Shown piece after piece: positions 175 to 35,740 of a DNA stretch of 64,000 nucleotides. The notes under the pieces are model-generated. The model did no database searches. It saw only the letters and a program-made list of their open reading frames with translations, and was not told the DNA's origin. The translations under genes were made by a program, and so were the position numbers. The stretch covers positions 1 through 64,000 of the forward strand of contig NZ_SIHJ01000008.1 in NCBI RefSeq assembly GCF_007859765.1. The letters run 5' to 3'. Position 1 is the stretch's first letter. Every line of letters begins with the position of its first letter. The DNA comes from Posidoniimonas corsicana (GTDB taxonomy: Bacteria; Planctomycetota; Planctomycetia; Pirellulales; Lacipirellulaceae).

Positions 175-217
175 ACTTTTGTCCCTAAAAATCGATGCGC
201 CAGAACGGGACAAAACT
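175..217. repeat. GGACAAAA palindromic element, copy 1
   Basis: Arms ACTTTTGTCCC (175-185) and GGGACAAAACT (207-217) pair with one mismatch around a 21-base core. The core, TAAAAATCG followed by ATGCGCCAGAAC, is nearly the reverse complement of the core of the copy at 35576-35620, so the whole 43-base unit is conserved and not just the arms. It lies in the non-coding stretch between the transposase fragment and the cytochrome gene. Confidence 0.75.
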
Positions 218-389
218 ACCGGCGGTGGGCCCGCGTCCGATGCACGGCGTGATGTCGGTCTGCGAGGGAATCTCGTCGGGCGGATGCGATTGAACGCAGT
301 CCGGGCGTTGCTCGACCCGACCAGACCGGTCAGGCTACAATGGAAGGCCCTGGCTTGATCACCCACGCACCCGAGTCACCCTGCTCCTT

Positions 390-1559
390 ATGAAAACCCT
401 GTTTCCGATTGCCCTGCTTGCGGTCATTGCCACAGTTCTCCAACCAGTTGACGCGGCGGCCGCTGACAAAGTCGACTACGCGACCCAGATCAAGCCGATC
501 CTCGAGGCCAGCTGCACCAAGTGCCATGGCGAGAAACGCCAGCTGGGCGACCTGGCACTGCACACCGACGCGCTGGCGGAGGTGATCGAGGACGGGTACA
601 TCCTCGAAGGGGACGCCGAGTCAAGCAGCGTATACGAGCGGCTCACCCTCGAGCCGGATGACAAGCTGCTGATGCCCAAGGGGGGCGACCCGCTTCCCAA
701 GGAACAGATTGCGCTGATCGAGCAGTGGATCAACGAGGGCGCGGTGCTCACCTCGGCCGAAGCCACGCCCGAGCCGATGGCCCACGGCGAGGACGAGCAC
801 GCTGAGGACGAGGTCGACCCAATGCCCGCTCCACCCGCGGCCGACGAGTCGCGGGTCCAGGCGATCGCCGACATGGGCGCCAGCATCGTGCCGCTGTACC
901 AGGGCAGCACGCTGCTGAGCATTTCGTTCCCCAGCAACCCGCAGCAGGTGACCGACGAGTCGATCGACGCGATTGCGGCCGTCGGTCCCAACGTCGCGTG
1001 GCTCAGCCTGGGCGGCACGGCCGTTACGGACGCGGGCGTCGCGAAGCTGGCGGCGGCCTGCCCCAACCTGTCACGGCTGCACCTGGAGAAGACCGCCACG
1101 ACCGACGCCTCGGCGGACGCGCTCACCGGGCTGCAGCGGCTGGAGTACCTCAACCTGTACGGCACGGCCATCACCGACGCCACCGTGGCCAAGGCGGCGG
1201 CGCTGCCCAAGCTCCAACGCCTGTACGTGTGGCAGACCCCGGTCACGTACGACGCGGCCAAGCAGGCGATGGCGGCGCACGAGGGCCTGGAGATCAACCT
1301 CGGCTGGGACCACCCGGGCGTGGTCCGCGAGCGTCTGACCAGCGAGTTGGAGCGGGTGTCGACCCGCAAGGCCGAGGCCGCCGAGCGCGCCAAGCAGGCC
1401 GAGACGCAGCTCGCCGAGGCGAAGCAGCAGTTGGAGTCGTCCGCCGCGCGTGAGGAGGAGATCAAGCAAGAGCTGCAGGCCCTCGACGGCACGCCCGAAG
1501 AAGCCGAGGGAACGCCGGCCGAGGGTGCGACCGAAGCGTCCGAGCCGCAAGACGCCTAG
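390..1559 (+). CDS. Secreted planctomycete-type cytochrome c with leucine-rich repeats
   Basis: The 389-residue protein starts with a signal peptide (hydrophobic residues 4-20, AAAA cleavage region near 22-25). Residues about 28-117 match the planctomycete cytochrome c domain (PSCyt1-like), with one haem motif CTKCH at 42-46 and the usual closing 'LIEQWINEGA'. A low-complexity acidic linker follows. Residues about 180-300 form leucine-rich repeats (LSLGGTAVTDAGV, LHLEKTATTD, LNLYGTAITD). Residues about 310-365 are a charged predicted coiled coil, then an acidic tail. It should be periplasmic and may bind a partner through the LRR part; its electron donor or acceptor is unknown. fhcB begins 23 bases downstream, so the two may be cotranscribed. 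No clear ribosome binding site precedes the ATG; the signal peptide supports this start. Confidence 0.8.
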   Translation: MKTLFPIALLAVIATVLQPVDAAAADKVDYATQIKPILEASCTKCHGEKRQLGDLALHTDALAEVIEDGYILEGDAESSSVYERLTLEPDDKLLMPKGGDPLPKEQIALIEQWINEGAVLTSAEATPEPMAHGEDEHAEDEVDPMPAPPAADESRVQAIADMGASIVPLYQGSTLLSISFPSNPQQVTDESIDAIAAVGPNVAWLSLGGTAVTDAGVAKLAAACPNLSRLHLEKTATTDASADALTGLQRLEYLNLYGTAITDATVAKAAALPKLQRLYVWQTPVTYDAAKQAMAAHEGLEINLGWDHPGVVRERLTSELERVSTRKAEAAERAKQAETQLAEAKQQLESSAAREEEIKQELQALDGTPEEAEGTPAEGATEASEPQDA

Positions 1560-1582
1560 CCGCCGAACCCGGGGAGCCCAGG

Positions 1583-2866
1583 ATGGCGAGCCACCAGACG
1601 CACGTTGACGTCCTCTGCTTCGGATGCGGGTGCTTGTGCGATGATCTGCGGGTGACGGTGGACGGCGAATCCGCGCTGGCCGAAGGCCTGTCCTGCTCGC
1701 TGGGCCGTGAATGGCTCGACCGAGTCGCCGCTTGGCGTCCCGGGCCGTGTGTGATCGAGGGTCGCGAGGCGCCGCTCGCCGAAGCGGTCGCGCGGGCCGC
1801 CGATCTGCTTTCCGCCGCCCACGCGCCGCTGGTGTGCGGGCTGGCGGGCGCGGGGACCGACGCGCAGCGCGCCGCGGTGGGGATTGCCGACCGGCTGGGC
1901 GGCTTCGTGGACTGGACCACCACGCCGGCCGATGCGGCCGCAATCGAGTCGATGCAGACGGTCGGAGCGGTCGGCGTTTCGCTGGGAGAGATCGCGCAGC
2001 GGGCGGACCTGGTGGTGTTTTGGCAGTGCGACCCGGCCTCCACGCACCCGCGGCACTTTGAGCGGTACAGCCTGCAGCCCAAGAGCCGCTGGCTGCCGCG
2101 GGGCAGGGCAGACCGGAAGGTTGTCGCGGTGGGGGACCCGGCGTCCGCTACCGCGGCGGAGGCGGACAGCGTTGTTGAGCTGCCAGCCGGCGGCGCCGTC
2201 GACGCGCTAGTCGCGCTGCGGGCGGCGCTGGCCGGCGTGACGCTTGCGTCCGACCCGCCGGCCCCGATCGCCCGCCTAGCGGAGCAGATCCGCGACGCCA
2301 GCTTCGCGGTGTTCTTCTACGGCGATGAGTTGAAACGGCAGGGCGCCGCGGCGCTGACGGAGCTCACGCTGCTCGCGCAGTCGCAGCAGGAAACGACGCG
2401 CGTAGTCACCGCTCCGCTGGGCGGCGCCGGCAACGCGCCCGGCGCGAAGAGTGTGATGACCTGGCAGACCGGCTACCCGATGGCGGTGTCCTTTGCGAGC
2501 GGTTCGCCCGAGTACGGAGCGCCGGATTTCACCGCCGAGTCGCTCCTCGCGCGGGGCGAGGTCGACGCCGTGCTGGTGGTTTCCGAGGACGGGATGGCCG
2601 GGCTCAGCGACGCGGCGATCCAGGCGGTCTCGCGGGTGGATTCAGTGGTGCTGAGCTCTGCGCCGGTGGACGGGCTTGGCGCCACGGTTCGGTTCAGCAC
2701 GCCGCCGTTGGGGGCGGCGCCGGGCGGCGCCGTGTTCCGCTCCGATCACGTAGCGCTGCCGCTTCACCAGCCGTTGGTGGACGCCGCCACGACCGACGCG
2801 GGGGTGCTGGCGGCCATCGCTGCGCGGCTGGCGCCGGCGTTCAGCGGTTTGCCGGCCGGCCCATGA
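1583..2866 (+). CDS. fhcB: Formylmethanofuran dehydrogenase subunit B homologue
   Basis: The 427-residue protein resembles the molybdopterin-binding B subunit (FwdB/FmdB) of formylmethanofuran dehydrogenase. In bacteria it belongs to the formyltransferase/hydrolase (Fhc) complex of tetrahydromethanopterin-linked formaldehyde oxidation. Near the N-terminus is a cysteine group CFGCGCLCDD (residues 12-21) with another cysteine in 'LSCSLGREW', as in the iron-sulfur segment of FwdB. 'WQCDPASTHPRHF' (Cys149) corresponds to the conserved C-N-P...HPRH segment that carries the metal-ligating cysteine in archaeal enzymes. In bacterial Fhc the subunit may have lost redox function; the sequence does not settle this. 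GGGGAG 7 bases before the ATG is the ribosome binding site. Its 3' end overlaps the antisense DinB gene by 26 bases. Confidence 0.82.
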   Translation: MASHQTHVDVLCFGCGCLCDDLRVTVDGESALAEGLSCSLGREWLDRVAAWRPGPCVIEGREAPLAEAVARAADLLSAAHAPLVCGLAGAGTDAQRAAVGIADRLGGFVDWTTTPADAAAIESMQTVGAVGVSLGEIAQRADLVVFWQCDPASTHPRHFERYSLQPKSRWLPRGRADRKVVAVGDPASATAAEADSVVELPAGGAVDALVALRAALAGVTLASDPPAPIARLAEQIRDASFAVFFYGDELKRQGAAALTELTLLAQSQQETTRVVTAPLGGAGNAPGAKSVMTWQTGYPMAVSFASGSPEYGAPDFTAESLLARGEVDAVLVVSEDGMAGLSDAAIQAVSRVDSVVLSSAPVDGLGATVRFSTPPLGAAPGGAVFRSDHVALPLHQPLVDAATTDAGVLAAIAARLAPAFSGLPAGP

Positions 2867-3347
2867 GACGGCGGAGCAGGATCACCTGGCCGATATGCAG
2901 CAGCTCGTGCGAGGGGCAAAACTCCACCGCGCCCAGCGGCGTGGAGAACCGCGGGTGCGAGTTCTCCAGCTCGACGTCGAGGAACGCGTCGCTCATCAGC
3001 ACGAGCTCGCTGTAGGTGTGCTCCGCAACCGCGTCCAGCACCCGCACCAGCTCTTGCGGCGACGTGTTGGCCGCCGGGTCGGGGCTGGGGGTCGAACCGC
3101 GTCCGTAGCGGGTGCGGATCTCGTCGGAGATCAGCAGCTGGTCGGTCACCTGCTCGCCCCGCACCCGTACCAGGCAGAGCGCGTACTGGGTCGCGGTGAT
3201 GTGCCCCACCTGCCAGGCGATGTTCGTGACGCCCTCGTGCGGCTGCCAGAACCACTCGTCGGGCTGCAGGTCGGCGAGGAAGCCCTTGAGCATCTCGCGC
3301 GTCTGCTTCATCCGTTCGACCGCCGCGTCGATTCGTGTCCGCCCCAT
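2841..3347 (-). CDS. DinB-family protein
   Basis: A 168-residue all-helical protein of the DinB/YfiT-like putative metalloenzyme superfamily. The expected histidine metal ligands are present: 'WQVGHITATQY' in the second helix and 'SHELLHIGQVILLRR' near the C-terminus. Members are thiol-dependent transferases or of unknown function. The ATG at 3347 is preferred because AGGAGG lies 6 bases upstream; TTG and GTG codons just before it are too close to the ribosome binding site. The gene is convergent with fhcB (26-base tail overlap) and divergent from fhcA, so it splits two genes whose products form one complex. A second, dissimilar DinB-like gene lies at 30144-30638. Confidence 0.8.
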   Translation of the reverse strand: MGRTRIDAAVERMKQTREMLKGFLADLQPDEWFWQPHEGVTNIAWQVGHITATQYALCLVRVRGEQVTDQLLISDEIRTRYGRGSTPSPDPAANTSPQELVRVLDAVAEHTYSELVLMSDAFLDVELENSHPRFSTPLGAVEFCPSHELLHIGQVILLRRLMGRPANR

Positions 3348-3494
3348 CACCAACCTCCTGCGTGAATGCTGACCTTGCGGTTAAGATAGCGTTTCACCAT
3401 CCATGCGGCCAGCAAGCCGGCCGGCCGCCGCGAGCAGGACTTGTGGCTCCGCTTGTCCGCAATCCGTACGAACCCAACCAACCGACCACCACGC

Positions 3495-5147
3495 ATGCTC
3501 AAGATCGCCGGCGCAACGCTGCACGACCCGGCCAACGGGGTAGACGGCCGGCAGGCGGACTTGTGGATCGACGGCGGAAAGATCGTCGCCCCGCCGGACA
3601 ATCCTGCGGTCAAGCCCGCCCGCGTGCTGGACGCCAAGGGGCTGATCGCGATGCCCGGGGGCGTGGACATGCACTGCCACATCGCGGGACCGAAGGTCAA
3701 CGCGGCGCGTGAGCTGCGGTGCGACGACCGCCGCGCCGAGGACCAGCGGATCGCCCGCCGCGAGGGGTTCCGCAGCGGCACGCTAGGCAGCGTCCCCAGC
3801 ACGTTCGCCACGGGCTACAAGTACGCGGGCCTGGGCTACACCACGGCCTTCGACGCCGCGGTTCCGCCGATGGCCGCCCGGCATGCGCACCTGGAGCTCG
3901 CCGACACGCCCTGCATCGACAGCGGCTTCTACGTGCTGCTGGGCAACAACCACTACGTGATGGACTGCCTGAAGCAGCGTGACCCGGCGCGGCTGCGCTC
4001 GTACCTGGCGTGGCTGCTGGGCGCCACGAAGGGCTACGCGCCGAAGCTGGTGAACCCGGGCGGTGTGGAAGTGTGGAAGCAATCGGGGCAGGACGCCCTG
4101 CAAGGGCTGGAAGACAAGGTCCCGCAGTTTGACGTTTCGCCGCGGGAGATCATCCGCGGCGTCGCCCAGGCGGCGGCCGAGCTCGGGCTCCCCCACCCGG
4201 TGCACCTGCACTGCAACCAACTCGGCATGCCGGGCAACTGGCGGACCACGCTCGACAGCATGCACGCGCTCGAGGGCTGCCGCGCCCACCTGACGCACAT
4301 CCAGTTCCACAGCTACGGCGGCGGCGATGAGGACGAGGGCACGCTTGCCAGCCGCGTGCAGCCGCTGGTGGAGCACGTTAACCGCCACGAAAACCTGACC
4401 GTCGACGTGGGTCAGGTGCTGTTCGGCGCCACCACCAACATGACCGGCGACGGGCCGCTCGGGCACTACCTTTACCGCACCACCGGGGACCGCTGGTACT
4501 GCCACGACACCGAGGTCGAAGCCGGGTGCGGGGTGCTGCCGATGGAGTACCGCGACAAGAACCTGTTCAACGCGTTGCAGTGGGCCATCGGGCTGGAGTG
4601 GCACCTGATGATCGACGACCCGTGGCGGCTGGCGCTCAGCACCGACAGCCCCAACGGCGGCTCATTCCTCGCCTACCCCGAGCTGATCCGCCTGCTGATG
4701 GACCGCGACCACCGCAACGAGGTGCTCTCCCGCTGCCCGCCCAAGCTGCAGGACCGCTGCGGGCTTGCCGGGCTGGACCGCGAGTACACGCTGAACGAGA
4801 TCGCGATCATCACCCGCGCAAGCCCGGCAAGGATCCTCGGCCTGCCGAACAAGGGGCGATTGGACGCCGGCGCCGACGCGGACATCACGCTCTACACGCC
4901 CAGCGACAACGCCGCGGAGATGTTCGCGCTGCCGCGGTACGTGCTCAAAGCGGGCGAGCTGATCATCGACAACTATGAGCCGTGCGCTGCGCCCGACGGC
5001 AAGACGCTCTGCGTCGCGCCCGACTACGACCCTACGCCGCTGTCGGACATGGAGAAGTGGTTCGCCAGCGAGTACTCGGTCCAGATGAGCCACTACGGCG
5101 TCCGCGATGACGAGACGCCCCGCGCCGAAGTCACCCCGACCGGCTAG
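3495..5147 (+). CDS. fhcA: Formylmethanofuran dehydrogenase subunit A homologue (amidohydrolase)
   Basis: A 550-residue amidohydrolase-superfamily protein of the FwdA/FmdA type, expected to hydrolyse the formyl carrier to formate in the Fhc complex. Metal-site motifs seen: MHCHIAG (HxH) near residue 57, 'YAPKLVNPGG' with the likely carboxylated lysine, 'HLHCNQLG', 'HLTHIQFHSYGG', and the catalytic aspartate in 'LSTDSPNGGSF'. The open frame extends upstream to 3441, but family alignment and the compact 'MLKIAGATL' N-terminus favour the ATG at 3495. It is separated from fhcB by an antisense DinB gene. fhcD and fhcC, often adjacent in other genomes, are not in this window. Its TAG stop shares the CTAG at 5144-5147 with the stop of the convergent mscS-like gene. 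Confidence 0.88.
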   Translation: MLKIAGATLHDPANGVDGRQADLWIDGGKIVAPPDNPAVKPARVLDAKGLIAMPGGVDMHCHIAGPKVNAARELRCDDRRAEDQRIARREGFRSGTLGSVPSTFATGYKYAGLGYTTAFDAAVPPMAARHAHLELADTPCIDSGFYVLLGNNHYVMDCLKQRDPARLRSYLAWLLGATKGYAPKLVNPGGVEVWKQSGQDALQGLEDKVPQFDVSPREIIRGVAQAAAELGLPHPVHLHCNQLGMPGNWRTTLDSMHALEGCRAHLTHIQFHSYGGGDEDEGTLASRVQPLVEHVNRHENLTVDVGQVLFGATTNMTGDGPLGHYLYRTTGDRWYCHDTEVEAGCGVLPMEYRDKNLFNALQWAIGLEWHLMIDDPWRLALSTDSPNGGSFLAYPELIRLLMDRDHRNEVLSRCPPKLQDRCGLAGLDREYTLNEIAIITRASPARILGLPNKGRLDAGADADITLYTPSDNAAEMFALPRYVLKAGELIIDNYEPCAAPDGKTLCVAPDYDPTPLSDMEKWFASEYSVQMSHYGVRDDETPRAEVTPTG

Positions 5148-6109
5148 CCCCCGTGGGCGTGCTCGGCGGGCGTGGCGTCGCCCTGCACGGTGATTGGCTC
5201 TTTGAAGGTCATGGTGCGGTGCGGGAACGGGATCTCGATCTCAGCGCCGTCGAGTCGGCGTTTGATCTCCTGCACCACCTCGTCGCGTGACGCCCGCTGC
5301 TCCTTTGGGGTGGAGCCGGCCCACCAGCAGACCTCGAAGTTGATGCTCGAGTCGCCGAACTCGCGGGCGAAGACTTCGGGCTGAGGATTAGCTTTGACGC
5401 TGTCACAGGCGACGAGCGCGTCGTGGATGGTCTGCTGTGCGGACGACAGGTCGGTCGTGTAGTCGACGCCGCAGATTAGGCGGGCCCGCCGGGTTGGTCT
5501 GCTGGTCATCACCCGGACCGGCGACTTGAAAAGCTGGGCGTTGGGCAGCACAACCAGCTGCCCATCCACCTGGCGGATGGTCGTCATGCGGATGGTGGTT
5601 TCCTCAACGGCGCCCTCGATGTCGCCGCACTCGATGAAGTCGCCGTTCTCGAACGGGAACCGCCACAGGATGAGCACGCCGGCGAAGAAGTTCTCCACGA
5701 TGTCCTTGAACGCGAATCCGATCGCGATGGACCCCAGGCCAAACACCGTCAGCACCTTGGCGATGGTCATGCCCGGGAAGATGATCACGGCCGCCACGAG
5801 CAGCCCGACAACCCACACCGCCGCGTAGGCCACCTGGCGGAGCAGGTCCTTGAGGCTGCGCCGCAGCCGCACCCGCGTGAGGGCCTTGCGGGTCACGCGG
5901 TCGGCCAGCGCTGCCACGCCCCAAGTGACCAGCAGGATCAGCAACGCGGCCACGATCAGCGGCAGCCTCGCGAGGAAGTCTTCTAGCATGCCCGACAGGC
6001 TTCCGACGACCGTGCTCACGGCGTCGTCGATGGAGCGGATTTCGGGCGTCTGGATCTCCGGGGCGTCGTCGGCTTCATCGGCCGCTTGCGCCAACAGCAA
6101 CGTGTTCAC
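5144..6109 (-). CDS. MscS-family mechanosensitive channel
   Basis: A 321-residue small-conductance mechanosensitive channel. A non-conserved N-terminal region with acidic residues precedes a transmembrane segment (about 48-68, LIVAALLILLVTWGVAALA), a second at about 96-112, and the conserved pore helix region containing 'VFGLGSIAIGFAFKDIVENFFAGVLIL'. The beta domain follows with 'FENGDFIECGDIEGAVEETTIRMTTIRQ', then a C-terminal alpha/beta domain. It releases osmolytes on hypo-osmotic shock in the inner membrane. Transcribed convergently with fhcA, with interleaved stop codons and no space for a terminator between them. Confidence 0.9.
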   Translation of the reverse strand: MNTLLLAQAADEADDAPEIQTPEIRSIDDAVSTVVGSLSGMLEDFLARLPLIVAALLILLVTWGVAALADRVTRKALTRVRLRRSLKDLLRQVAYAAVWVVGLLVAAVIIFPGMTIAKVLTVFGLGSIAIGFAFKDIVENFFAGVLILWRFPFENGDFIECGDIEGAVEETTIRMTTIRQVDGQLVVLPNAQLFKSPVRVMTSRPTRRARLICGVDYTTDLSSAQQTIHDALVACDSVKANPQPEVFAREFGDSSINFEVCWWAGSTPKEQRASRDEVVQEIKRRLDGAEIEIPFPHRTMTFKEPITVQGDATPAEHAHGG

Positions 6110-6253
6110 GGCGGTGCTCGCTGAGGGTAGGTGCTTGCCTGCTACCCCCTATTGTGGGGCTGCGATCCAGGACGACCACCCGTGGCGCGAAAGCGGCCGT
6201 TGGCTGCGTGCTGGGTAACCAGTCTGGCGCCGAATCAGTCAGCGACGGGCTCG

Positions 6254-7429: not shown

Positions 7430-7460
7430 GGGTGTTGTTTGTCTGGAGTGCAGCGGTGAC

Positions 7461-8255: not shown

Positions 8256-8297
8256 GGGATGCTCCGGTGAAGAGTTTGGCTCTGGTGTGCTGCGTGC

Positions 8298-10277: not shown

Positions 10278-10523
10278 GGCGGGCGGCGGACCAGTTGGAG
10301 GGTGGGATCGCGTGCCCGACAGTGTAAGCCGCGGGGCTGTGCGATACGAGCCTTTGCCGGAGATTGGAAGGCATCGCACCACGTCTGCGGCGGGTCGCAG
10401 TGCTCACCAGCGTTCGGCTGTTTTAGCTGCACCGCGCGAGCGGTTCGTTTATCATGCGCCGGCCACGCCGTTGGGGCGTGGTTGCTCATCCATCCAGCAC
10501 GCCCGCTTCGGGCAACCAGTTCT

Positions 10524-23412: not shown

Positions 23413-23452
23413 GTACCGATCGTGTGGAGGTGCGCGGTCGGCAGGTACAACG

Positions 23453-23989: not shown

Positions 23990-24292
23990 GCCGTGACTTG
24001 AGTGAGAACTGGTGAGGCGCCCCTATTGTTACGCGAAGGCGGGCCGGGGGCTATGCGTGTTGGCCCGGTTGCGAATCGCCGGGTCGGCCCAGTTTGTCGT
24101 AGCAAACGGCCACCCGGCGCGGTCCAATAGAGGGTTGGCCGGGCGTCTGCGCGGCCGGGGTGGACTCCAGACCCGCCGTTCAGAGCGGTAGAGCGGCTCC
24201 CGGGCGCCGCGGCAAGTGCGGGGGCGGCCATGGTAGTTCGCGCAGATAAGGGCGGAATCGTGGCGTGGGTTGGGGGCCGGAGACCGCCCCGT

Positions 24293-24330
24293 GGTTTTGG
24301 CCCCTGCTGCGCTCAAAAACGGACAAAACC
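24293..24330. repeat. GGACAAAA palindromic element, copy 2
   Basis: Arms GGTTTTGGCC (24293-24302) and GGACAAAACC (24321-24330) pair with one mismatch around an 18-base core CCTGCTGCGCTCAAAAAC. The core again has a GCGC next to an A-run, as in the other copies. Confidence 0.65.
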
Positions 24331-24410: not shown

Positions 24411-24447
24411 AGTTTTGTCCGCTTCGCTCGTTTTTTTGGACAAAACT
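24411..24447. repeat. GGACAAAA palindromic element, copy 3
   Basis: Perfect 10-base arms AGTTTTGTCC (24411-24420) and GGACAAAACT (24438-24447) flank a 17-base core GCTTCGCTCG plus a T-run. It lies about 50 bases upstream of the bioB -35 element. Confidence 0.75.
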
Positions 24448-24495
24448 AGGCGGCCAAAACGGGCCGAACATGGAGGAGTCGGCGGCCGTCGGGAC

Positions 24496-24525
24496 TTGCC
24501 ACGGGCGGGGCCGGCTCGGGATAAT
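24496..24525 (+). promoter_or_regulatory. Candidate sigma-70 promoter of bioB
   Basis: TTGCCA (24496-24501) and GATAAT (24520-24525) are separated by 18 bases, each differing from the housekeeping consensus at one or two positions. The predicted transcript start near 24532 gives a leader of about 27 bases before the bioB ATG. Confidence 0.55.
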
Positions 24526-24558
24526 GCCGGGCTACTTTTTTCGAACTACGGAGCTGCG

Positions 24559-25596
24559 ATGTCCGAGACGCTTGATTGCCCGACCGCCAATGCCGCCCCC
24601 ACCGCCAGCCGCTGGCAGGCCCTGGCCGACCAGGTGCTGGCCGGCGAGCCGCTGACCGCGGAGCAGGCCGGCGAGGTGCTGGCCTGCCCCGACAGCGAGC
24701 TGCTCAACCTGCTGGACGCGGCGTACCGGGTGCGGCGGCATTACTTCGCCAACCAGGTGCAGCTGTACCTGCTGATGAACGCTAAGAGCGGCCTGTGCCC
24801 GGAGGACTGCGGGTACTGCTCGCAGTCCAAGGACAGCCAGGCGGAGATCCCCAAGTACAACATTCTCAGCCGCGACAAGCTGATGGACGGCGCCCGGGTG
24901 GCCAAGGAGCGTGACGCGCGGACCTACTGCATCGTGATCTCCGCCCGCGGCCCCAACGAGCGGGAGATGAAGGCCGTCGAAACGATCGTGCCGGAGATCA
25001 AGGAGAAGTACGGCCTGCACATCTGCGCGTGCCTGGGCCTGCTGACCGACGACCAGGCCCAGCGGCTCAAGGCGTGCGGCGTCGACCGGGTAAACCACAA
25101 CCTGAACACGGGCCAGGGGCACTACGAGAAGATCTGCACCACCCACACCTTCGCCGACCGGGTCGACACGCTCAAGGCGGTCCGCTCGGCCGGCATGGAG
25201 ATGTGCTCCGGCGGCATCGTCGGCATGGGCGAGTCGAACGAGGACCTGGTGAGTATGGCGATTGAGCTGCGCGAGCTGGGCGTGCACTCGATCCCAGTGA
25301 ACTTCCTGATCCCGATCGAGGGGGTCGACATGCCGCACCAGGAGCACGTCACGCCGCAGTACTGCCTGAAGACGCTGGCCATGTTCCGCCTGGTCTGCCC
25401 GGACCGCGAGATCCGCATCGCCGGCGGCCGCGAGATGCACCTGCGGAGCCTGCAGCCGCTGGGGCTGTACGCGGCGAACTCGATGTTCGTGGGCGACTAC
25501 CTGACCACCATGGGCCAGCCGCCTGAAGAGGACTACCAGATGATCCGCGACCTTGGCTTCGAGATCGTCAGCGAGTCTGAGGCGAGTGTTTGTTAG
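24559..25596 (+). CDS. bioB: Biotin synthase
   Basis: A 345-residue radical SAM enzyme that inserts sulfur into dethiobiotin to form biotin. The radical SAM cluster motif is CPEDCGYCSQS; the [2Fe-2S] ligands are supplied by later cysteines ('TYCIVISARGP', 'HICACLGLL', 'CGVDRVNHNLNTG') and Arg in 'IRIAGGRE'. 'GGIVGMGES' and 'PVNFLIPIEGVDM' are standard. The frame is open from 24415, but the ATG at 24559, following GGAG, matches family length. It stands alone with no other bio genes nearby. A heptanucleotide repeat tract starts 3 bases after its stop codon. Confidence 0.96.
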   Translation: MSETLDCPTANAAPTASRWQALADQVLAGEPLTAEQAGEVLACPDSELLNLLDAAYRVRRHYFANQVQLYLLMNAKSGLCPEDCGYCSQSKDSQAEIPKYNILSRDKLMDGARVAKERDARTYCIVISARGPNEREMKAVETIVPEIKEKYGLHICACLGLLTDDQAQRLKACGVDRVNHNLNTGQGHYEKICTTHTFADRVDTLKAVRSAGMEMCSGGIVGMGESNEDLVSMAIELRELGVHSIPVNFLIPIEGVDMPHQEHVTPQYCLKTLAMFRLVCPDREIRIAGGREMHLRSLQPLGLYAANSMFVGDYLTTMGQPPEEDYQMIRDLGFEIVSESEASVC

Positions 25597-25599
25597 TGG

Positions 25600-25728
25600 G
25601 TGGTAGGTGGTAGGTGGTAGGTGGTAGGTGGTAGGTGGTAGGTGGTAGGTGGTAGGTGGTAGGTGGTAGGTGGTAGGTGGTAGGTGGTAGGTGGTGGCTG
25701 GTGGCTGGTGGCTGGTGGCTGGTGGCTG
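25600..25728. repeat. Heptanucleotide tandem repeat tract (GTGGTAG x13, then GTGGCTG x5)
   Basis: Thirteen perfect GTGGTAG units run from 25600 to 25690. After three extra bases (GTG), five perfect GTGGCTG units run from 25694 to 25728. The tract starts right behind the bioB stop codon. The plus strand is made of closely spaced GG pairs and could form two-layer G-quadruplexes. The perfect copies and sharp switch of unit indicate recent slippage expansion. Confidence 0.95.
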
Positions 25729-25827
25729 GGTGGCGACCGGAGTGACTTGGTGGTGGGTCACCCTGGCGGTAAGCCTTGCTAGCAGTGCCGGACGTTGCTC
25801 GGCTGCTTTGCCTATCCTTCCGGGGTG

Positions 25828-25867
25828 GGTTAACCGGTAGAAATCATCGTCTTTTGTTAACCGGCAG
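25828..25867 (+). promoter_or_regulatory. Paired GTTAACCGG boxes upstream of the DUF11 gene
   Basis: GGTTAACCGGTAG (25828-25840) and TGTTAACCGGCAG (25855-25867) are direct repeats with 27 bases between equivalent positions, about two and a half helical turns. GGTTAACC within the first is itself palindromic. They lie 130-170 bases upstream of the DUF11 protein start and look like a regulator-binding or promoter element; no known site was recognised. Confidence 0.45.
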
Positions 25868-25997
25868 GGTCGTCGGCGCCGATAGACGGTGGATAGCGGG
25901 CGGAGTCTACCGTCACGCTGCGGCTGTAGCGCCTGTGGGGGGAACGCTAGCAGCCGCCGGAAATGCGGCGAACGCAACGCAAGGACGCGTATCCACC

Positions 25998-28799: not shown

Positions 28800-28947
28800 C
28801 GAACAGCCGCAAGAACTGCGAGCGGCCGCAGAGGTGCGAAGCGGGTTGCCGATAAGTCGCGGACAACCGATGCGCGCAACGCTCGGCCAAACTACGCAGC
28901 CGCGCTAGACTACTGGTTTGCTGCTCGGCCACGGAAGCTGCCCCTCG

Positions 28948-30147
28948 ATGCCCCGCCTGCGACGCTTTGCTTTCATCCTGCTGCTGCTCGTTCCGGCGAC
29001 CGCGCTAGGGCAGCTGCGCGTCGTGACCTGGAACACCAACGGCGGCGCCCGCAGCGGCATGCAAGACGTGCTCGCGGCGATTGGTTTGGAAGAAGTCAAC
29101 GGCTTCGCCCAGCCGATCGACGTGCTCACGCTGCAGGAACAGTCCGGCGGCGACTCCGCGTCCATCCTGGCGTTGTTCAACAACCTCTACGGCGCGGGCG
29201 TCTACGAGGTTGCTCCGACGCCGGCGGCCGCGCAGAGCTCCGGCGGAGGGTTGCCGGGGCTGATCTACAACACACAGACAATCGACCTGCTGCAGGTAAC
29301 GGCGTTCGGCTCGGTGGACACCAGCGCCCAGGCCCGCTCGACGCTGCGGTACCAGCTCCGTCCCGACGGCTACGACGACGATGCCGAGTTCTACGTCTAC
29401 AGCAACCACTACAAGGCGTCGACCGGCGGCAGCAACGAGGCCCGCCGCAACGTTGAGGCCAATGCACTCCGCGGCGACCTGGACGCGCTAGGCGATGGCG
29501 TCGCGGCGATCCTGACCGGCGACTTCAACGTGTACGACAGCGCCGAGCCCGCTTACCAGACGCTGCTGTCGGCCGGTCCCGGGCAGGCGTTTGATCCGAT
29601 TGACACGCCGGGCGACTGGCATGACGACCCCGCGTTCAAGTCCGTCCACACACAGAGCCCCACCACCAGCTCGCTGTTCCCGGGGCAGGTGACCGGCGGC
29701 ATGGACGACCGGTTCGATTTTCAGCTTGTGACCGGCGAGCTGCTCGACGGTGTCGGCCTGGACTATTGGCCGGGCAGCTACCGGACCTTTGGCAACAACG
29801 GCACCCACCAGCTCAACGGCGCAATCACCAGCGGGACCGGCGCGTCGCCGTCGGTGCTGGCCGCGCTGCAGATGGCGAGCGACCATCTGCCGGTCGTCGC
29901 CGATTACCTGCTCCCGTCGCTCGGGCTGGCGGGCGACTTCAACGAGGACGGGCTGGTGGACTCGGCGGACTACACGGTCTGGCGTGACGGTTTCGGATCA
30001 GTCTACAACCAGCAGGACTACGACGACTGGCGGTCCAACTTCGGCGCGACCTCCGGGGTCGCGTCGTCGACGCCGGTCCCCGCGCCCGCCGCGGCCTGGC
30101 TTGTGCTGCTAGGCGCTCTGCTCTTGGGCGGCCGCAGGCGCTCCTAG
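28948..30147 (+). CDS. Secreted EEP-family phosphodiesterase/nuclease with dockerin-like and PEP-CTERM-like ends
   Basis: A 399-residue protein: signal peptide (RRFAFILLLLVPATALG), an endonuclease/exonuclease/phosphatase domain (about 22-325), a dockerin-like calcium segment ('GDFNEDGLVDSADYTVWRDGFG') and a C-terminal anchor 'VPAPAAAWLVLLGALLLGGRRRS' like a PEP-CTERM signal with PAP in place of PEP. EEP catalytic residues are visible: Asn in 'TWNTNGG', Glu in 'LQEQ', His in 'SNHYKA', Asp/Asn in 'TGDFNVYD', Asp in 'MDDRFDFQL', and Asp-His in 'ASDHLPV'. It may degrade extracellular nucleic acid or another phosphoester. The ATG at 28948 is preferred over a TTG at 28918. Its stop shares CTAG with the stop of the convergent DinB gene. 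Confidence 0.85.
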   Translation: MPRLRRFAFILLLLVPATALGQLRVVTWNTNGGARSGMQDVLAAIGLEEVNGFAQPIDVLTLQEQSGGDSASILALFNNLYGAGVYEVAPTPAAAQSSGGGLPGLIYNTQTIDLLQVTAFGSVDTSAQARSTLRYQLRPDGYDDDAEFYVYSNHYKASTGGSNEARRNVEANALRGDLDALGDGVAAILTGDFNVYDSAEPAYQTLLSAGPGQAFDPIDTPGDWHDDPAFKSVHTQSPTTSSLFPGQVTGGMDDRFDFQLVTGELLDGVGLDYWPGSYRTFGNNGTHQLNGAITSGTGASPSVLAALQMASDHLPVVADYLLPSLGLAGDFNEDGLVDSADYTVWRDGFGSVYNQQDYDDWRSNFGATSGVASSTPVPAPAAAWLVLLGALLLGGRRRS

Positions 30148-30638
30148 AACAACGCCGCGTGCCCCGCCGCCCGCCGGCAGCTCGACAGCTGCGACAGGTG
30201 GAACGCGAAGTGGTTGGTCAAGATCAGCGTGGTCATCTGCGAGACCGTCTTGACCGGCGTGTCTTCCAGCAGCTCCACGCCGTGCGGGCGGGCCAGCAAC
30301 TCTTCATCGGCAGCGGCCGCCAGCGTGTGCATCTTTGGGTAGGCCGTGTTGATCGCGGCCAAGAACGACTCCTGCGTGTAGGCGTCATCCGGCTCTACCT
30401 TGCCTGAGGACCCGGGGCCGAACACGGGTATCCACTCGCGGTGCGTCACTTCACCGCCGAGCAGCATGCACCCCATCTCCCCAACGATGGCCAGGTGCCC
30501 CAGGACCCACGCCGGCGAGTGCCCGTGGCCCGCCGCGCTCGCGTAGTGCTGGTCCGCGGGCAGGTCGGCCGCGATCCGGTCCAGGTACGCTAGCTGCATC
30601 TGGTTGATGGTGATGTCGTTGTCGAACGTCGTGTTCAT
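30144..30638 (-). CDS. DinB-family protein
   Basis: A 164-residue DinB-superfamily helical protein. The metal-binding histidines are seen in 'GHSPAWVLGHLAIVGEMG' and 'LTNHFAFHLSQLSSCRRAAGH'. 'EWIPVFGPGSSGKVE' is commonly seen in planctomycete members. It follows the GH28 gene by 41 bases on the same strand, so it may be in the same transcript, but there is no functional link known. Activity unknown. Confidence 0.8.
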   Translation of the reverse strand: MNTTFDNDITINQMQLAYLDRIAADLPADQHYASAAGHGHSPAWVLGHLAIVGEMGCMLLGGEVTHREWIPVFGPGSSGKVEPDDAYTQESFLAAINTAYPKMHTLAAAADEELLARPHGVELLEDTPVKTVSQMTTLILTNHFAFHLSQLSSCRRAAGHAALF

Positions 30639-30679
30639 CGCGGCCGATCCGTGGGGATTGAGTGGGTGGATTCAGGCGG

Positions 30680-32023
30680 CTACTCGTCGCCCATCTGCAC
30701 GTTCTCTAGCGTGAGGTTCGCGACATCGCGGATCAGGCTTGGCTTCTTGGCGCCGCGGAAGTCGCAGTCGCGGAGCACGACGTCCTCGATCAGCGTCTCC
30801 GGCAGGCCCATCAGGTGCAAGGGACGCTTGCTCTTTTTGCTGACCACCCGCTCCAGCAGGATGTTGCTCACCTTGGGGAAGTAGTCTCCCTCCTCGTTGA
30901 AATACCGCAGGTTGATACGCAGCACCGCGTCGGAAACCTCGCCCACCTCGATGTCACGCACGTACATGTTCCGCAGGTAGCCGCCCCGGCGGGAGTTGGA
31001 CTTCAGCCGGATGGCCCGCTCCAGGTTCGGGCTGTCCATCTGGCAGTTCTCGACAAAGATGTTCTCGATGCCGCCGGACATCTCGCTGCCCAGCACCACG
31101 CCGCCGTGGCCGTCCCGCATGGTGCAGTTGCGGACCACGATGTTCTGGCTGGGCGTGGCCAGGCGTCGGCCGTCGGCGTTGCGGCCGGACTTGATGGCGA
31201 TGCAGTCGTCGCCGGTGTTGAAGAAGCACTCCTCGATCAGCACGCCGTCGCACGACTCGGGGTTGCAGCCGTCGTTGTTGGGGCCGTGGCTCTCCACCCG
31301 CACGCCCCGCACCGTAACGTTCTGGCACAGCACCGGGTTCAGGCACCACATCGGCGAGCGGTGCACGGTGATCCCCTCGATGAGCAAGTTCTTGCAGCGG
31401 TAGGGCTGCACAAAGTTGACGCGCATCTTGCGGCCCGACCCAAACCGACGCTCGGCGACCGGCACGTTGCGGTCGGCCATGTCGATCAGGTCGTTGCCGT
31501 CGTCGGTCCCGTTGCCCTTCCACTTCCACCAGCTCTTGTCGTCGGCCTGGCCGTCGATCGTGCCCTGGCCGGTGACCGCAATATTCTCCTGGTCCAACGC
31601 CCAGATGGGCGGCGAGAAGTTCATCAGCTCCGTTCCCTCAAACCGGGTCAGCACCATCGGCAGGAAGTCCTCTGGGTCGTTGCTGAACAGCAGCGTGGCG
31701 TCCTTCTCCAGGTGTAGGTTCACGTTAGAGAGCAGGTGCACCGGACCCTTCACAAACCATTCGCCGGCCGGCACAACCACCCGCCCGCCGCCGGCCTGGT
31801 TGCAGGCCGTGATGGCGTCGGCGATCGCCGCACGGCAGTCGCACTTGCCGCCGGGCTTGGCGCCGTGGGCGGTGATCGGGAAGTCCTTGTCGGCGAACGT
31901 CGGTGGCTGGATCTTCTCTAGCAACGCGGGCAGCTGATCCCACGGCGAGTCCGCCAGCGCGGGCGCGCAGGCGGCGAGCAGCAAGAGGCACGTGAACAGT
32001 CGGTTGATTGATTGATAGGCCAT
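30680..32023 (-). CDS. Glycoside hydrolase family 28 (polygalacturonase-like)
   Basis: A 447-residue exported right-handed beta-helix. Signal peptide 1-24 (LFTCLLLLAACAPALA), then 'DFPITAHGAKPGGKCDCRAAIADAITACNQAGGGRVVVPAGEWFVKGPV', the usual GH28 entry. The active site shows 'GPNNDGCNPESC' (Asn-x-Asp), 'NTGDDCIAIKSG' (Asp-Asp), 'GHGGVVLGSEMSGG' (Gly-His-Gly) and 'AIRLKSN' (Arg-x-Lys). All catalytic residues are in place, so it probably hydrolyses galacturonan or rhamnogalacturonan in the periplasm or outside. A much longer open frame reaches 33544 but overlaps the Gfo/Idh/MocA gene and lacks any domain; the ATG at 32023 gives the signal peptide. Confidence 0.93.
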   Translation of the reverse strand: MAYQSINRLFTCLLLLAACAPALADSPWDQLPALLEKIQPPTFADKDFPITAHGAKPGGKCDCRAAIADAITACNQAGGGRVVVPAGEWFVKGPVHLLSNVNLHLEKDATLLFSNDPEDFLPMVLTRFEGTELMNFSPPIWALDQENIAVTGQGTIDGQADDKSWWKWKGNGTDDGNDLIDMADRNVPVAERRFGSGRKMRVNFVQPYRCKNLLIEGITVHRSPMWCLNPVLCQNVTVRGVRVESHGPNNDGCNPESCDGVLIEECFFNTGDDCIAIKSGRNADGRRLATPSQNIVVRNCTMRDGHGGVVLGSEMSGGIENIFVENCQMDSPNLERAIRLKSNSRRGGYLRNMYVRDIEVGEVSDAVLRINLRYFNEEGDYFPKVSNILLERVVSKKSKRPLHLMGLPETLIEDVVLRDCDFRGAKKPSLIRDVANLTLENVQMGDE

Positions 32024-32401
32024 AGGAGCTTCAGGATAAGGTGACACGAGTAGTTGCGGGCGTCGGCACGATTCTATCAGCTCGCCAAGGCGGCCAGCAA
32101 CGAACGGTCGCGGGGATTGCAACCATGCCCGCCCGACCTGCGTTGGCGGGAACCTCGCTGGCCCGCATCGAGTACGGCACCGGCCTGGACATCGGGAGTC
32201 TGGACGGCGGACGCCTGATCCCGCATTGTGCTGCGCCACGCGCAGTCCTGACTCTCGTTCGCGCACCAAGCACCGTTCCTGGGGCGTCGATGCGTTACCC
32301 TGGGTCAGAGCGACACGGCGGCCCATCGCCGCCCGCCCCCTCCACCCCGGCCAGCTAGGCTCACGATGAGCCGCTCCCCGCCCAGCCTTCAGGAGCACCG
32401 C
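32024..32401. other. Divergent intergenic region between GH28 and Gfo/Idh/MocA genes
   Basis: No gene, repeat or clear terminator was recognised in these 378 bases. It must contain the promoters of the two divergent genes; no strong -35/-10 pair stands out. Confidence 0.5.
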
Positions 32402-33682
32402 TTGAACCCTATCGATCGTCGGACCTTCCTGCACGCCGCCGCCGCTTCCGGCGCCCTCACGTCTGCCGCACCCTCGCTCGCCAACCCGGCCAGCAGCGAC
32501 GTCACCTTTGCGCTGATGGGCGCCAACAGCCGCGGGTCGCAGCTCGCCAAGCGGTTCCTCAAGTTCCCCGGCGTCCGCTTCGCCTACGTGTGCGACCCGG
32601 ACGAGCGGGCGCTTGCTAAGGGGCTCAAGACCATCGCCGACAACGACGGCGGCCGGCCGCGGGGAGTGAAGGACTTCCGCACCGCGCTCGACGACCCCCA
32701 CGTCGACGCCTTGATCTGCGCGGCGCCCAACCACTGGCACGCCGCCGCCACGGTAGCCGCGTGCGCGGCCGGCAAGCACGTCTACGTCGAGAAGCCCTGC
32801 ACCCACACCGCGTGGGAGGGGCAGGTCATGCAGGACGCGGCGGAACGCTCGGGACGCGTGGTGCAGGTCGGCACTCAGCGACGCAGCAGCCCGATGTACC
32901 AAGAGGTAATGCAGAAGGCCCGCGAAGGCGTCATCGGCGAGGTGCTCTACGCCAAGTCGTGGTACCTGCGGGACCGACCGCCGATCAAGCTGCAGGCGGC
33001 CGACGGTCCCCCCGCCGGGCTCGACTACCGCCTGTGGCAGGGGCCGGCGCCAGACCGGAACTACCAAGCAGGCCTGCTGCCGTACAACTGGCACTGGTTC
33101 TGGCACTGGGGCAACGGCGAGATCGGCAACAACGGGGTGCATATGATCGACCTTTGCCGCTGGGTGCTGGGGATGGACCTTCCCGAACGAGTCAGCTGCG
33201 ACGCCTCTCAGCTCAGGCCTGGCGACCAGCGGCAGACCCCCGACAGCACCGTGGCCGTGTACGACCAGGGCGGCAAGCGGATTGTCTGGGAAGGGCTCAG
33301 TTGGTCCTCGCCCCACCAGACCGCCGGCGGGGTGGGCATGGAGTTCCGCGGGACGCAGGGCACGCTGATCGTTGGCGACAACGGCTACGAGGTCTACAAC
33401 GCCGGACGCGAGCTGGTCGAACGCCAGCAGCGCGGCGGCGTCGGCGACGATGAGCACTGCATCAACTTCCTCTCCGCCGTCCGCAGCGGCGCCGCGGTCA
33501 ACGCCCCGCTCGACGAGGGCTGCCGCAGCGCGCTGTTCTGCCACCTGGCCAACATCGCGTACCGCACCGGCGGCGTCCTCGCGACCGACCCGCAGTCCGG
33601 TCGCATCAACGACAACCCGGCCGCGATGCGGCTGTGGGACCGTGAGTACCAGCCCGGCTGGGCGCCGCAGGAGCTTGGCTAA
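32402..33682 (+). CDS. Tat-exported Gfo/Idh/MocA-family oxidoreductase
   Basis: A 426-residue NAD(P)-dependent oxidoreductase. The N-terminus 'NPIDRRTFLHAAAASGALTSAAPSLA' is a twin-arginine signal. The Rossmann domain begins 'VTFALMGANSRGSQLAKRF'; 'DALICAAPNHWHAAATVAACAAGKHVYVEKP' is the family signature (EKP at the end), and 'GEIGNNGVHMIDLCRWVLGMDLPERVSC' belongs to the C-terminal domain. I favour the TTG at 32402 since AGGAG lies 6 bases upstream and places the RR motif at the very start; the ATG at 32366 would add 12 residues. Many planctomycete members are periplasmic sugar oxidoreductases; the substrate is unknown. Confidence 0.87.
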   Translation: MNPIDRRTFLHAAAASGALTSAAPSLANPASSDVTFALMGANSRGSQLAKRFLKFPGVRFAYVCDPDERALAKGLKTIADNDGGRPRGVKDFRTALDDPHVDALICAAPNHWHAAATVAACAAGKHVYVEKPCTHTAWEGQVMQDAAERSGRVVQVGTQRRSSPMYQEVMQKAREGVIGEVLYAKSWYLRDRPPIKLQAADGPPAGLDYRLWQGPAPDRNYQAGLLPYNWHWFWHWGNGEIGNNGVHMIDLCRWVLGMDLPERVSCDASQLRPGDQRQTPDSTVAVYDQGGKRIVWEGLSWSSPHQTAGGVGMEFRGTQGTLIVGDNGYEVYNAGRELVERQQRGGVGDDEHCINFLSAVRSGAAVNAPLDEGCRSALFCHLANIAYRTGGVLATDPQSGRINDNPAAMRLWDREYQPGWAPQELG

Positions 33683-33903
33683 CCCACTGCCGGGCGTTGC
33701 ACTGCGTCAGCTTCTTTTTGGCTGACTGGGCCGCGGATTCAAACGCGGCGGAACCGGGCCGCTGCGCGCTCGCGTGGGTGGGCAGTTTTACGGTGCGCAC
33801 CACGCGGCCCGGCCTGCTACACTGTCGGGCCCTTGTCTAGCGGAGTGTCCTGGAATCGCGGGGGATTCCGCTGCATTTCTAAACTTTCTGAAGGCGATTG
33901 TGC

Positions 33904-35511
33904 ATGGGGCTATCTCGTAAACTGCTGAGCAGCGCGGTGGTCGCCGCGTTGGGCGGGTTCCTATTCGGTTTCGACACGGTGGTGATCTCCGGCGCCGAGC
34001 AGACGATCCAGTCGCTCTGGTCGCTCAGCGACACGATGCATGGCCTGGCCACCAGTGCGGCGCTGTGGGGCACGGTGCTGGGCGCCCTCACCGGCAGCAT
34101 CCCCACAGACCGGCTCGGACGAAAAGGCACGCTGGGCTGGATCGGCGTGCTGTACTTCGTCTCGGCGGTGTGGTCGGGCATGGCCGGTGGGCCGTACTCG
34201 TTCATGATCGCGCGGTTCATCGGCGGCGTGGGCGTTGGCATCTCGACGGTCGCCGCGCCGCTGTACATCGCCGAGATCGCCCCGGCCGAGTGGCGCGGCC
34301 GGCTGACCGGCATGTTCCAGTTCAACATCGTGTTCGGCATCCTCATGGCGTTCCTCAGCAACTACCTGCTGAAGACCAGCCTGAGCGGCGACGCCTGGCG
34401 GTGGATGCTGGGCGTCGAGGCAGTCCCCGCCCTCGTGTACACCGTGTTCACGCTCGGCATCCCCGAGAGCCCGCGCTGGCTGATCGGCTTCCGCCGCGAC
34501 TCGGCCGCTGCGCGGCAGGTGCTGACCAAAATCCAACCCGCCGCCGCCGACGCGGAGATCGACGCGACGGTCGCGGAGATCGAGAACGCCGCCCACTCCG
34601 AGGAGTCCGCCAGCGGCGGTTCGGCCTGGCCGCGGTGGCTGGTGACCCCGATGCTGCTGGCCTTCACCATCGCGTTCTTCAACCAGCTATCCGGCATCAA
34701 CGCGGTGCTGTACTTCGCCCCCCGCATCCTCGGCATGACCGGGTTGGGCGAGCAGGCGTCGATGATCCAGTCGACCGGCATCGGGCTGGTCAACCTCCTG
34801 TTCACGTTCGTTGGGTTGTGGCTGATCGACCGGCTGGGGCGGAGGAACCTGATGCTGATCGGCTCGGTGGGTTACATCGCATCGTTGTCGCTGATCGCGG
34901 CCGTGTTCTTCGCCAAAGCCGCGCCGTTCGGCGTCGCGGCCAACGCCCTCGAGGCCCAATCCGCCTATGAGGAACTGGCCGCCGCGCAGTCCACCGACCA
35001 AGCCGACCTGGAACCGCTCCGCCAGCAGGCCGACTCCGCACGCGAGCGACTGCTCGCCGCGACCGCAAACGCCGACTACCCGCCCGGGACCGCCACGCTG
35101 CCGGCCGATTCCGACCCCGCGGCGCTGGCCGTCGCGGCCGGTTTGCTGGCGGAGCAGGCTTCCGAGGCGGCCGGCAGCGGCGGCGCGCTGGTGCTGCTGG
35201 GCATCTTCGCGTTCATCGCGTCGCACGCGGTGGGGCAGGGCGCCGTGATCTGGGTGTTTATCTCCGAGATCTTCCCCAACGAGCACCGCGCGGTTGGCAA
35301 CTCCATCGGCTCCGGCACGCACTGGGTATTCGCCGCGCTGGTCACCATGGCGTTCCCGGTCGCCGCCGGCGCGTTCGCGCCGGGCTACATCTTCGCGTTC
35401 TTCGCGTTCATGATGGTGCTTCAGCTGCTGTGGACCCTGACCCTCATGCCCGAGACCAAAGGCGTGCCGCTGGAGGAGATCCAGCAGCGGTTCGCGTCGC
35501 GGGCGGCATAG
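33904..35511 (+). CDS. Sugar porter family MFS transporter with long periplasmic insert
   Basis: A 535-residue proton-sugar symporter-like protein of the XylE/GLUT family. Signatures: 'GGFLFGFDTVVISGAE', 'DRLGRKG', 'RFIGGVGVGISTVAAPLYIAEIAPAEWRGRLTGMFQFNIVFG', 'GIPESPRWLIG', 'FNQLSGINAVLYFAP' and 'PETKGVPLEEIQQRF'. Twelve transmembrane helices are expected. Between TM9 ('LIGSVGYIASLSLIAAVFFA') and TM10 ('GALVLLGIFAFIASHAVG') is an insert of about 85 residues (340-424), Ala-, Glu- and Gln-rich and probably helical, on the periplasmic side; ordinary sugar porters have a loop of 10-20 residues here. AAGG 9 bases before the ATG supports the start. Substrate likely a pentose or hexose. Confidence 0.9.
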   Translation: MGLSRKLLSSAVVAALGGFLFGFDTVVISGAEQTIQSLWSLSDTMHGLATSAALWGTVLGALTGSIPTDRLGRKGTLGWIGVLYFVSAVWSGMAGGPYSFMIARFIGGVGVGISTVAAPLYIAEIAPAEWRGRLTGMFQFNIVFGILMAFLSNYLLKTSLSGDAWRWMLGVEAVPALVYTVFTLGIPESPRWLIGFRRDSAAARQVLTKIQPAAADAEIDATVAEIENAAHSEESASGGSAWPRWLVTPMLLAFTIAFFNQLSGINAVLYFAPRILGMTGLGEQASMIQSTGIGLVNLLFTFVGLWLIDRLGRRNLMLIGSVGYIASLSLIAAVFFAKAAPFGVAANALEAQSAYEELAAAQSTDQADLEPLRQQADSARERLLAATANADYPPGTATLPADSDPAALAVAAGLLAEQASEAAGSGGALVLLGIFAFIASHAVGQGAVIWVFISEIFPNEHRAVGNSIGSGTHWVFAALVTMAFPVAAGAFAPGYIFAFFAFMMVLQLLWTLTLMPETKGVPLEEIQQRFASRAA

Positions 35512-35575
35512 GGTAAATGCTGCGGGCAACCTGGTCTGCTGTCGGCAACAGTGGAACCGCCTTGCTTAGCGACCC

Positions 35576-35620
35576 GACTTTTGTCCCTTCTGGCGCTATC
35601 GATTTTTAGGGACAAAAGTC
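35576..35620. repeat. GGACAAAA palindromic element, copy 4
   Basis: Arms GACTTTTGTCCC (35576-35587) and GGGACAAAAGTC (35609-35620) are perfectly complementary over 12 bases around the core TTCTGGCGCTATCGATTTTTA. That core is the near reverse complement of the core in the copy at 175-217. Confidence 0.85.
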
Positions 35621-35700
35621 GGCCCCCATCTCGGGCCTGAGAATGCGTTTCACGCTTGTATAGTAGTGTCTAGGGCGTTGCGGCTGGTCGGCCCAGGGGC

Positions 35701-35740
35701 GACTTTTGTCCACCAATGGCGCGGCATAGGGACAAAAGTC
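35701..35740. repeat. GGACAAAA palindromic element, copy 5
   Basis: Arms GACTTTTGTCC (35701-35711) and GGACAAAAGTC (35730-35740) pair perfectly over 11 bases. The core ACCAATGGCGCGGCATAG keeps the TGGCGC seen in copy 4 but is otherwise different, so the arms are better conserved than the core. Confidence 0.85.

Follow-up and report, generated by a model that had tools for sequence, protein, structure and literature searches.

An interspersed palindromic repeat of Lacipirellulaceae that may be kept as phased DNA-binding sites

A 64,000-nucleotide stretch of Posidoniimonas corsicana DNA (contig NZ_SIHJ01000008.1, positions 1 to 64,000; hereafter the window) contains five palindromes with arms that carry the octamers TTTTGTCC and GGACAAAA, which raises the question of whether they are mobile DNA, RNA structures or sites kept for a protein. 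The original prediction had described a dispersed family of hairpins. All five palindromes were found where that prediction had placed them, and they contain each of the nine TTTTGTCC/GGACAAAA octamers of the window (9/9). As claimed, copies 1 and 4 (numbered by position) have a common core in opposite orientation (CTAAAAATCGATGCGCCAGAACG; CTAAAAATCGATAGCGCCAGAAG when reverse complemented). Our best reading is that the palindromes belong to a repeat of Lacipirellulaceae that resembles bacterial interspersed mosaic elements (BIMEs) and inverted doublets of repetitive extragenic palindromic sequences (REPs; the doublets are termed REPINs), and that is kept as phased, putative DNA-binding sites.

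Anatomy and copy number of the composite unit

The pattern TTTTGTCC N5-35 GGACAAAA occurred 216 times in the 6.77-Mb genome of the window (13 contigs; G000), and the reversed control pattern was absent. Thus the five palindromes are not the only copies in the genome, and the expected dispersed, REP-like, mostly intergenic family was supported, its copies numbering far more than tens. Merging left 61 distinct sites in the first 2.97 Mb of contig C1, from which a genome-wide total of about 139 can be extrapolated. In a comparison with shuffled DNA, 16 twin units with four arms were present in 571 kb of G000 and none in three mononucleotide block shuffles. Most copies were gathered by exact arm patterns, so that arm conservation is inflated in those sets. 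REPs are defined as extragenic, palindromic, short (14-40 nt in E. coli) sequences with a common consensus, many copies and, usually, transcription (as quoted in PMC12306157). The palindromes, which span 33-41 nt by pattern, are likewise extragenic, short and numerous with a common consensus, where extragenic refers to gene calls made by G+C content at third codon positions (GC3) only and one mechanical open reading frame (ORF) overlaps a palindrome. Copies 1, 4 and 5 of the window lie between genes, as had been claimed. Whether copy 3 does so depends on the start codon chosen; a mechanical ORF at 24415-25596 with a TTG start would overlap the palindrome, and use of the ATG at 24559 leaves it intergenic.

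Reading of aligned loci showed that a box (GTAGAAACCGGCCACC...GGTCCAAT) is followed by a spacer of variable length, palindrome V, a gap of 84-86 bp and palindrome C. The proposed derivation from one mobile or copied unit holds for ancestry, but the copied unit is this composite of box, V, about 85 bp and C rather than a single hairpin. Each pair of close copies noted earlier (24 and 35 kb loci) is one unit, with a box as a third conserved block, and copy 1 is a half-unit adjoining an inserted insertion sequence (IS). A single motif, A(C/G)TTTTGTCC, recurs in every arm. Palindrome V is mostly 34 nt long. In subfamily A, palindrome C is 39 nt with the core CTAARAATCGAT..GCGCCAGAA, and V and C carry CTnnTGGCGC in common in opposite orientation; in subfamily B, palindrome C is 33 nt with the core CCTCCGCGCGTGTTTTT, usually followed by a third arm. 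The left edge of the unit reads TTTnTn and the box GTAGAAACCGGCCACCCnGCGCGGTCCAATRG. Conservation begins nine bases ahead of GAAACC (37 boxes). At the other end it stops with AAAA(G/C)TC in subfamily A (29 units) and with the third arm in subfamily B (24 units); these sets were picked by patterns in the box and palindrome C, so that only edges and interior are informative. The left end is a faint mirror of the right end. A strict box pattern matched 86 times in G000 and not at all in 18 relatives. On C1 below 2.98 Mb, 32 of the 33 boxes stand beside a palindrome of the 216-member set, and the remaining one has an IS end, inserted in an arm, about 200 bp away. At one locus of the congener G001 (L101), palindrome C is followed by a small tandem array of GGACAAAAC with a period of about 16 bases.

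Constancy of arms and spacing, and turnover between congeners

Measured from inner arm to inner arm, V and C are 84-86 bp apart in 42 of 45 G000 units, 28 of them exactly 85 bp, and in 26 of 27 units of G001. Unlike this gap, the distance from box to V varies freely (about 15-140 bp, in a spacer that is not conserved). The V-C interior showed a mean identity of 51% and a maximum of 83% over the 351 pairs among 27 G000 A units. Maintenance of the V-C spacing without its sequence suggests the geometry of a DNA-bound protein. Applied to a few loci of G011, G016 and Lacipirellula limnantheis, the same gap test found none. A looser pattern gave V-C gaps of 86, 87, 87 and 75 bp in L. limnantheis (3/4 at 86-87 bp). 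Of seven G011 loci examined, five passed the C-palindrome test, and in these direct TGTCC motifs lie 11 and 20-22 bp apart upstream of C, distances near whole helical turns. A box of the same form was recognisable by eye in G011 and L. limnantheis, and the arrangement in G016 differs.

A scan for four arms that allowed at most 3 mismatches per arm and at most 7 of 32 in total was meant to offset selection by exact pattern; it would miss arms lost through insertion or deletion. Among the 16 twin units in the 571 kb of G000, eight had no arm mismatch in 32 bases, eight had one and none had 2-7. In 651 kb of G001 there were 11 twin units, with 0, 1, 2, 3 and 5 mismatches in 3, 4, 1, 2 and 1 units, respectively, and three shuffles of each genome's segments yielded no four-arm unit. 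Thus arms are held in G000 while the interior drifts, and some arms have decayed in G001. The arm deviations in palindrome V are single and uncompensated, which argues that the arms are kept as sequence rather than as pairs.

Comparison of orthologous sites, suggested between sister strains as a test of mobility, was made with the congener and revealed both shared and unshared sites in stretches that match at 69-90% identity. For window units 2 and 3, G001 has a unit at the same place and in the same orientation with a G001-type box and cores, and the subfamily of unit 2 differs between the genomes. Five further same-site pairs were found (L042/L103, L061/L128, L060/L107, L062/L134 and L066/L122, the last with a subfamily change). 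The seven shared sites came from a comparison of 40 G001 loci with 70 loci of G000 and four further stretches, taken from the window or from contig ends; 0.6-0.9 would be expected, assuming 3000-5000 intergenic slots. Left out of the count were L059/L127, where the unit and the homologous gene are far apart, L081/L119, where the site has no unit, and the weak pairs L071/L134 and L043/L118. The V-C identity of five orthologous pairs was 0.49-0.60 against a between-genome mean of 0.56, and the orthologs ranked 10, 2, 20, 10 and 17 among 21, L061/L128 being the exception; G000 members have 0.62-0.66 identity to their own-genome peers. Orthologous units are thus no more alike than unrelated ones, apart from that pair. 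Concerted evolution would produce this combination of a retained site and a replaced sequence.

Joined segments allowed 8 of 18 G000 units to be placed by synteny; five were present and three absent in G001, and three of the five lay in segments chosen for them. Among seven sites not chosen for sharing, two hand-read ones included, three have a unit in G001 (24293, 35576 and C8:71067). Six more units were not placeable. The L081 site is also empty in G001; the edges of an empty site could not be read from L081 against L119, as the intergenic DNA is too diverged.

Matches occurred in 32 of 396 genomes sampled from the order, nine of which had at least five palindromes (G000, 216; G001, 119; G011, 56; G016, 26; G243, 11; G158, 9; G109, 6; G050, 6; G147, 5). 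A scan of genomes other than that of the window returned 77 stretches with twin matches, many from Bacillus and Desulfobacterales. Twelve of the stretches were read, and twin matches from elsewhere looked unrelated in the few cases seen. Other TTTTGTCC/GGACAAAA palindrome repeats are tandem in Bacillus sp. ISL-45 (L215) and dispersed over contigs in a Desulfobacterales metagenome-assembled genome (MAG; L154/L155). In Pirellulales and Planctomycetaceae MAGs (L200, L207), TTTTGTCC and GGACAAAA are densely clustered beside genes in both orientations; the clusters resemble operator or iteron arrays, and a protein that recognises the same motif may bind there.

Where GC3 called both flanking genes, the units of G000 were in convergent, tandem and divergent contexts in 14, 14 and 5 of 33 rows (one locus counted twice), and those of G001 in 1, 7 and 1 of nine rows. 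A preference for gene ends was thus not established, as convergent contexts made up 14/33 in one genome but 1/9 in the other.

Folding, transposition and insertion-sequence targeting

The arms are themselves targets of an IS. Copies of an IS of 992-994 bp, with the terminal repeat AGCTCTGTAGAAA, stand at contig ends, position 1 of the window included, and insertion of this IS causes many of the contig breaks of the assembly. The sequence next to the IS is A(C/G)TTTTGT or its complement at 28 of 30 distinct ends, and ACATAAGT and ACTTATGT at the other two; eight of the nine such octamers in the window are inside units. A complete IS copy (L236) has the 8-bp duplication ACAAAACT. The IS fragment in the window matches DDE_Tnp_1 (PF01609) with an E value of 0.00048 and 20.4 bits, which is under the cut-off of 23. 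At L228, an element of about 100 bp bounded by the IS terminal repeat (about 2497-2604) is apparently a miniature inverted-repeat transposable element (MITE) of the IS; it directly adjoins a complete copy of the IS within one palindrome arm.

The original prediction had allowed that the palindromes are RNA structural elements. A structured non-coding RNA present in many copies, with the box as promoter and V-C as the RNA, would account for a two-block box at a variable distance upstream of a fixed-length module and for the near-exclusive association of boxes with units. As a promoter, the box would be extracytoplasmic function (ECF)-like. Compensatory arm changes, which that prediction had expected, were not observed; RNAalifold analysis of 44 A-type V-C sequences gave double changes in 0 of 13 predicted pairs. 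The set combined 27 G000 and 17 G001 sequences after L128 (V-C gap of 25 bp) and IS-broken units were dropped, and only V is informative in this test because the C arms were preselected by pattern. RNAalifold predicted nothing beyond parts of the V and C stems, so that an impression by eye of covarying hairpins in the middle region was rejected. Folding z-scores of the interior on the two strands were within the range of flanking DNA for A units (-0.28/-0.20 vs flanks -0.45, -0.29), B units (0.18/-0.36 vs -0.24, -0.52) and G001 (-0.54/-0.50 vs -0.74, -0.24). The window has no Rfam match at gathering score, and eight loci gave chance-level matches alone. Since hairpins were not predicted and the interior folds like its flanks, we dropped the RNA reading, which we consider quite improbable. 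The statement that no named family has these arms agrees with the Rfam result, and we found no description of them in the open-access literature searched.

Mobilisation was weighed in three forms. If a REP-associated tyrosine transposase (RAYT; Y1/HUH type) acted on single-stranded hairpins, V and C would be an inverted REP doublet; the preferred spacing of twin palindromes fits this, as do the five Y1_Tnp matches in G000, the absence of a target duplication in 33 units and a unit about 500 bp to one side of a weak Y1_Tnp match (L027). However, counting all Y1_Tnp genes without separating RAYT subfamilies, the domain occurs in 42 of 43 family genomes regardless of unit number (5 matches and 216 palindromes in G000, 14 and 0 in G017). 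At four of the five G000 loci, that of the best gene included, about 3.2 kb of sequence contain neither an exact arm nor an exact box, and none of the five has a RAYT gene flanked by two inverted REPs. The feet of V and C lack a GTAG or CGTC tag, and the 27 A-type units include no near-identical copies, the closest two having a V-C identity of 85%. Recent copying was not supported, given this identity and the lack of a target duplication. We regard the RAYT explanation as unlikely. The units could instead be MITEs of a DDE transposon with a lost or overlooked autonomous parent and ends at the box side (GACTTTnTnGTAG) and ACAAAAGTC, in keeping with their sharp edges, weakly mirrored ends, two subfamilies and unshared sites. 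Terminal inverted repeats with a target-site duplication define such elements, but the ends here are only weakly mirrored, the duplication is missing, no autonomous relative was found, and fixed internal spacing with undecayed arms is unexpected of relics; we hold this origin to be improbable. The GGCCACC-like unit ends resemble those of IS21. That link was not borne out by an IstB search, which gave three matches just above cut-off with no arms nearby, in a family that also matches 13 of 14 controls. Finally, the arms could be footprints of the IS inserting at A(C/G)TTTTGT, given the octamer next to its ends and the duplication in its complete copy. Target duplication yields direct repeats, but the two arms of a palindrome are inverted around conserved cores within a fixed 85-bp architecture, and this explanation is very unlikely indeed.

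Comparison with known repeats places the units close to BIME/REP elements of enterobacteria and pseudomonads, which are also high-copy, mostly intergenic palindromes in composite units. ISs that target REP palindromes include IS1397, ISKpn1, IS621, ISPpu9 and others (PMC1525189), and the IS described here also has the palindrome as its target. In contrast to BIME/REP elements, the arms are TTTTGTCC/GGACAAAA, the cores are 17-23 nt rather than short loops, and the family has a box and a fixed 84-86 bp V-C gap, without compensatory stem changes or a RAYT link. BIMEs consist of several REPs that alternate in orientation and are accompanied by inter-REP motifs; each unit here holds two near-symmetric palindromes with an orientation that is clear from the cores only. 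REPINs are inverted doublets at preferred spacing (71 and 110 bp in P. fluorescens SBW25) and are characterised by an excision or transposition intermediate (PMC3116915). The present units are also inverted doublets at a preferred spacing, but each palindrome is itself an inverted pair of one motif; they differ further in having no RAYT association, and no decayed units in the 571 kb of G000. RAYT-associated REPs flank the RAYT gene as two inverted copies, and RAYT presence correlates with REP abundance (PMC2817692). GTAG- and CGTC-tagged repeats, reported to include Planctomycetes (PMC3733652), are dispersed extragenic palindromes of the same phylum but have the tag that V and C lack, and the text of that paper makes no mention of Pirellula, Rhodopirellula or Blastopirellula. 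The units work like BIME/REP elements, and may be of the same kind, but fail the RAYT-specific tests.

The features of the window are collected in Table 1. A short coding stretch at 29922-29988 has matches at many places in G001; that it encodes a shared C-terminal sorting tail is a guess.

Table 1. Units and insertion-sequence features in the window
Feature	Position	Strand	Remarks
Right end of 992-994 bp IS; contig C8 starts inside IS	1..174	+	transposase C-terminus 3-149
IS terminal repeat, ends TTTCTACAGAGCT at 174	within 1..174	+	right end of the IS
Unit 1, palindrome C, subfamily A, beside inserted IS	175..217	+	V and box not on contig
IS target octamer ACTTTTGT	175-182		within palindrome C of unit 1
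Unit 2, box GTAGCAAACGGCCACCCGGCGCGGTCCAAT	24099..24128	+	unit edge about 24091; profile of 37 boxes
Unit 2, palindrome V, subfamily B	24293..24330	+	left arm degenerate (TTTTGGCC); gap to C 84 bp
Unit 2, palindrome C, subfamily B, core GCTTCGCTCGTTTTTTT	24411..24447	+	orthologous G001 unit is A type
Unit 3, palindrome C, subfamily A	35576..35620	-	orthologous unit in G001
Unit 3, palindrome V	35701..35740	-	gap to C 86 bp
Unit 3, box GTAGAAACCGGCCACC..., second block diverged	about 35868..35894	-	unit edge about 35903

Binding-site reading and its meaning

We conclude, with a probability of about 0.5, that the units are an interspersed composite DNA element of Lacipirellulaceae with arms and spacing kept as binding sites for a putative protein. 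A sequence-specific DNA-binding protein would occupy the arms as dimers on each palindrome and would form a single nucleoprotein complex by bridging V and C, which are separated by about eight helical turns. Such a complex could have a cis-acting role in the DNA between genes, for instance in organising the chromosome or insulating transcription. Chromosome-organising and insulating roles have been suggested for BIME/REP elements. The units would descend from a repeat copied in the past, and in G000 selection would now keep arms and spacing while cores and interior drift or are replaced.

Several observations weigh against this conclusion. The arm-binding protein is putative, predicted from the DNA, and the uniformity of the arms could also be due to gene conversion or to insertion into units already present. 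Decayed arms are retained in G001, where 4 of 11 twins have 2, 3 or 5 mismatches, and five of the six scanned segment pairs were picked for a known shared unit. One L. limnantheis gap is 75 bp, in a scan that admitted only 70-100 bp. Four of the seven unchosen sites have no unit in G001 (175, judged from one side only, C1:2408441, C2:263409 and C2:274575), and so no single site is indispensable. The family is absent from most genomes of the order. Finally, regular chromosomal spacing was not found, as the coefficient of variation of 0.87 was not significantly different from the random value of 0.97.

With arms that stay intact while the surrounding DNA drifts, the units look more like working docking sites for a putative protein than dead mobile DNA. 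We tentatively extend this to a possible, if doubtful, genome-wide network of about 140 selected nucleoprotein sites served by a dedicated putative protein that reads the TTTTGTCC arms, co-evolving within each genome at partly fixed positions. If true, the units would represent a bacterial chromosome-organising or insulating element of a new type that only some Lacipirellulaceae possess. Interspersed palindromes in bacteria are commonly attributed to RAYT transposases, and a cellular role for them has only been suggested. Here, near-invariant arms and spacing are combined with a drifting interior, no RAYT link and no decayed twins in the scanned G000 stretch. This combination opens the old question of whether such repeats are functional or selfish to a direct test, in a family whose copy number differs greatly between species.

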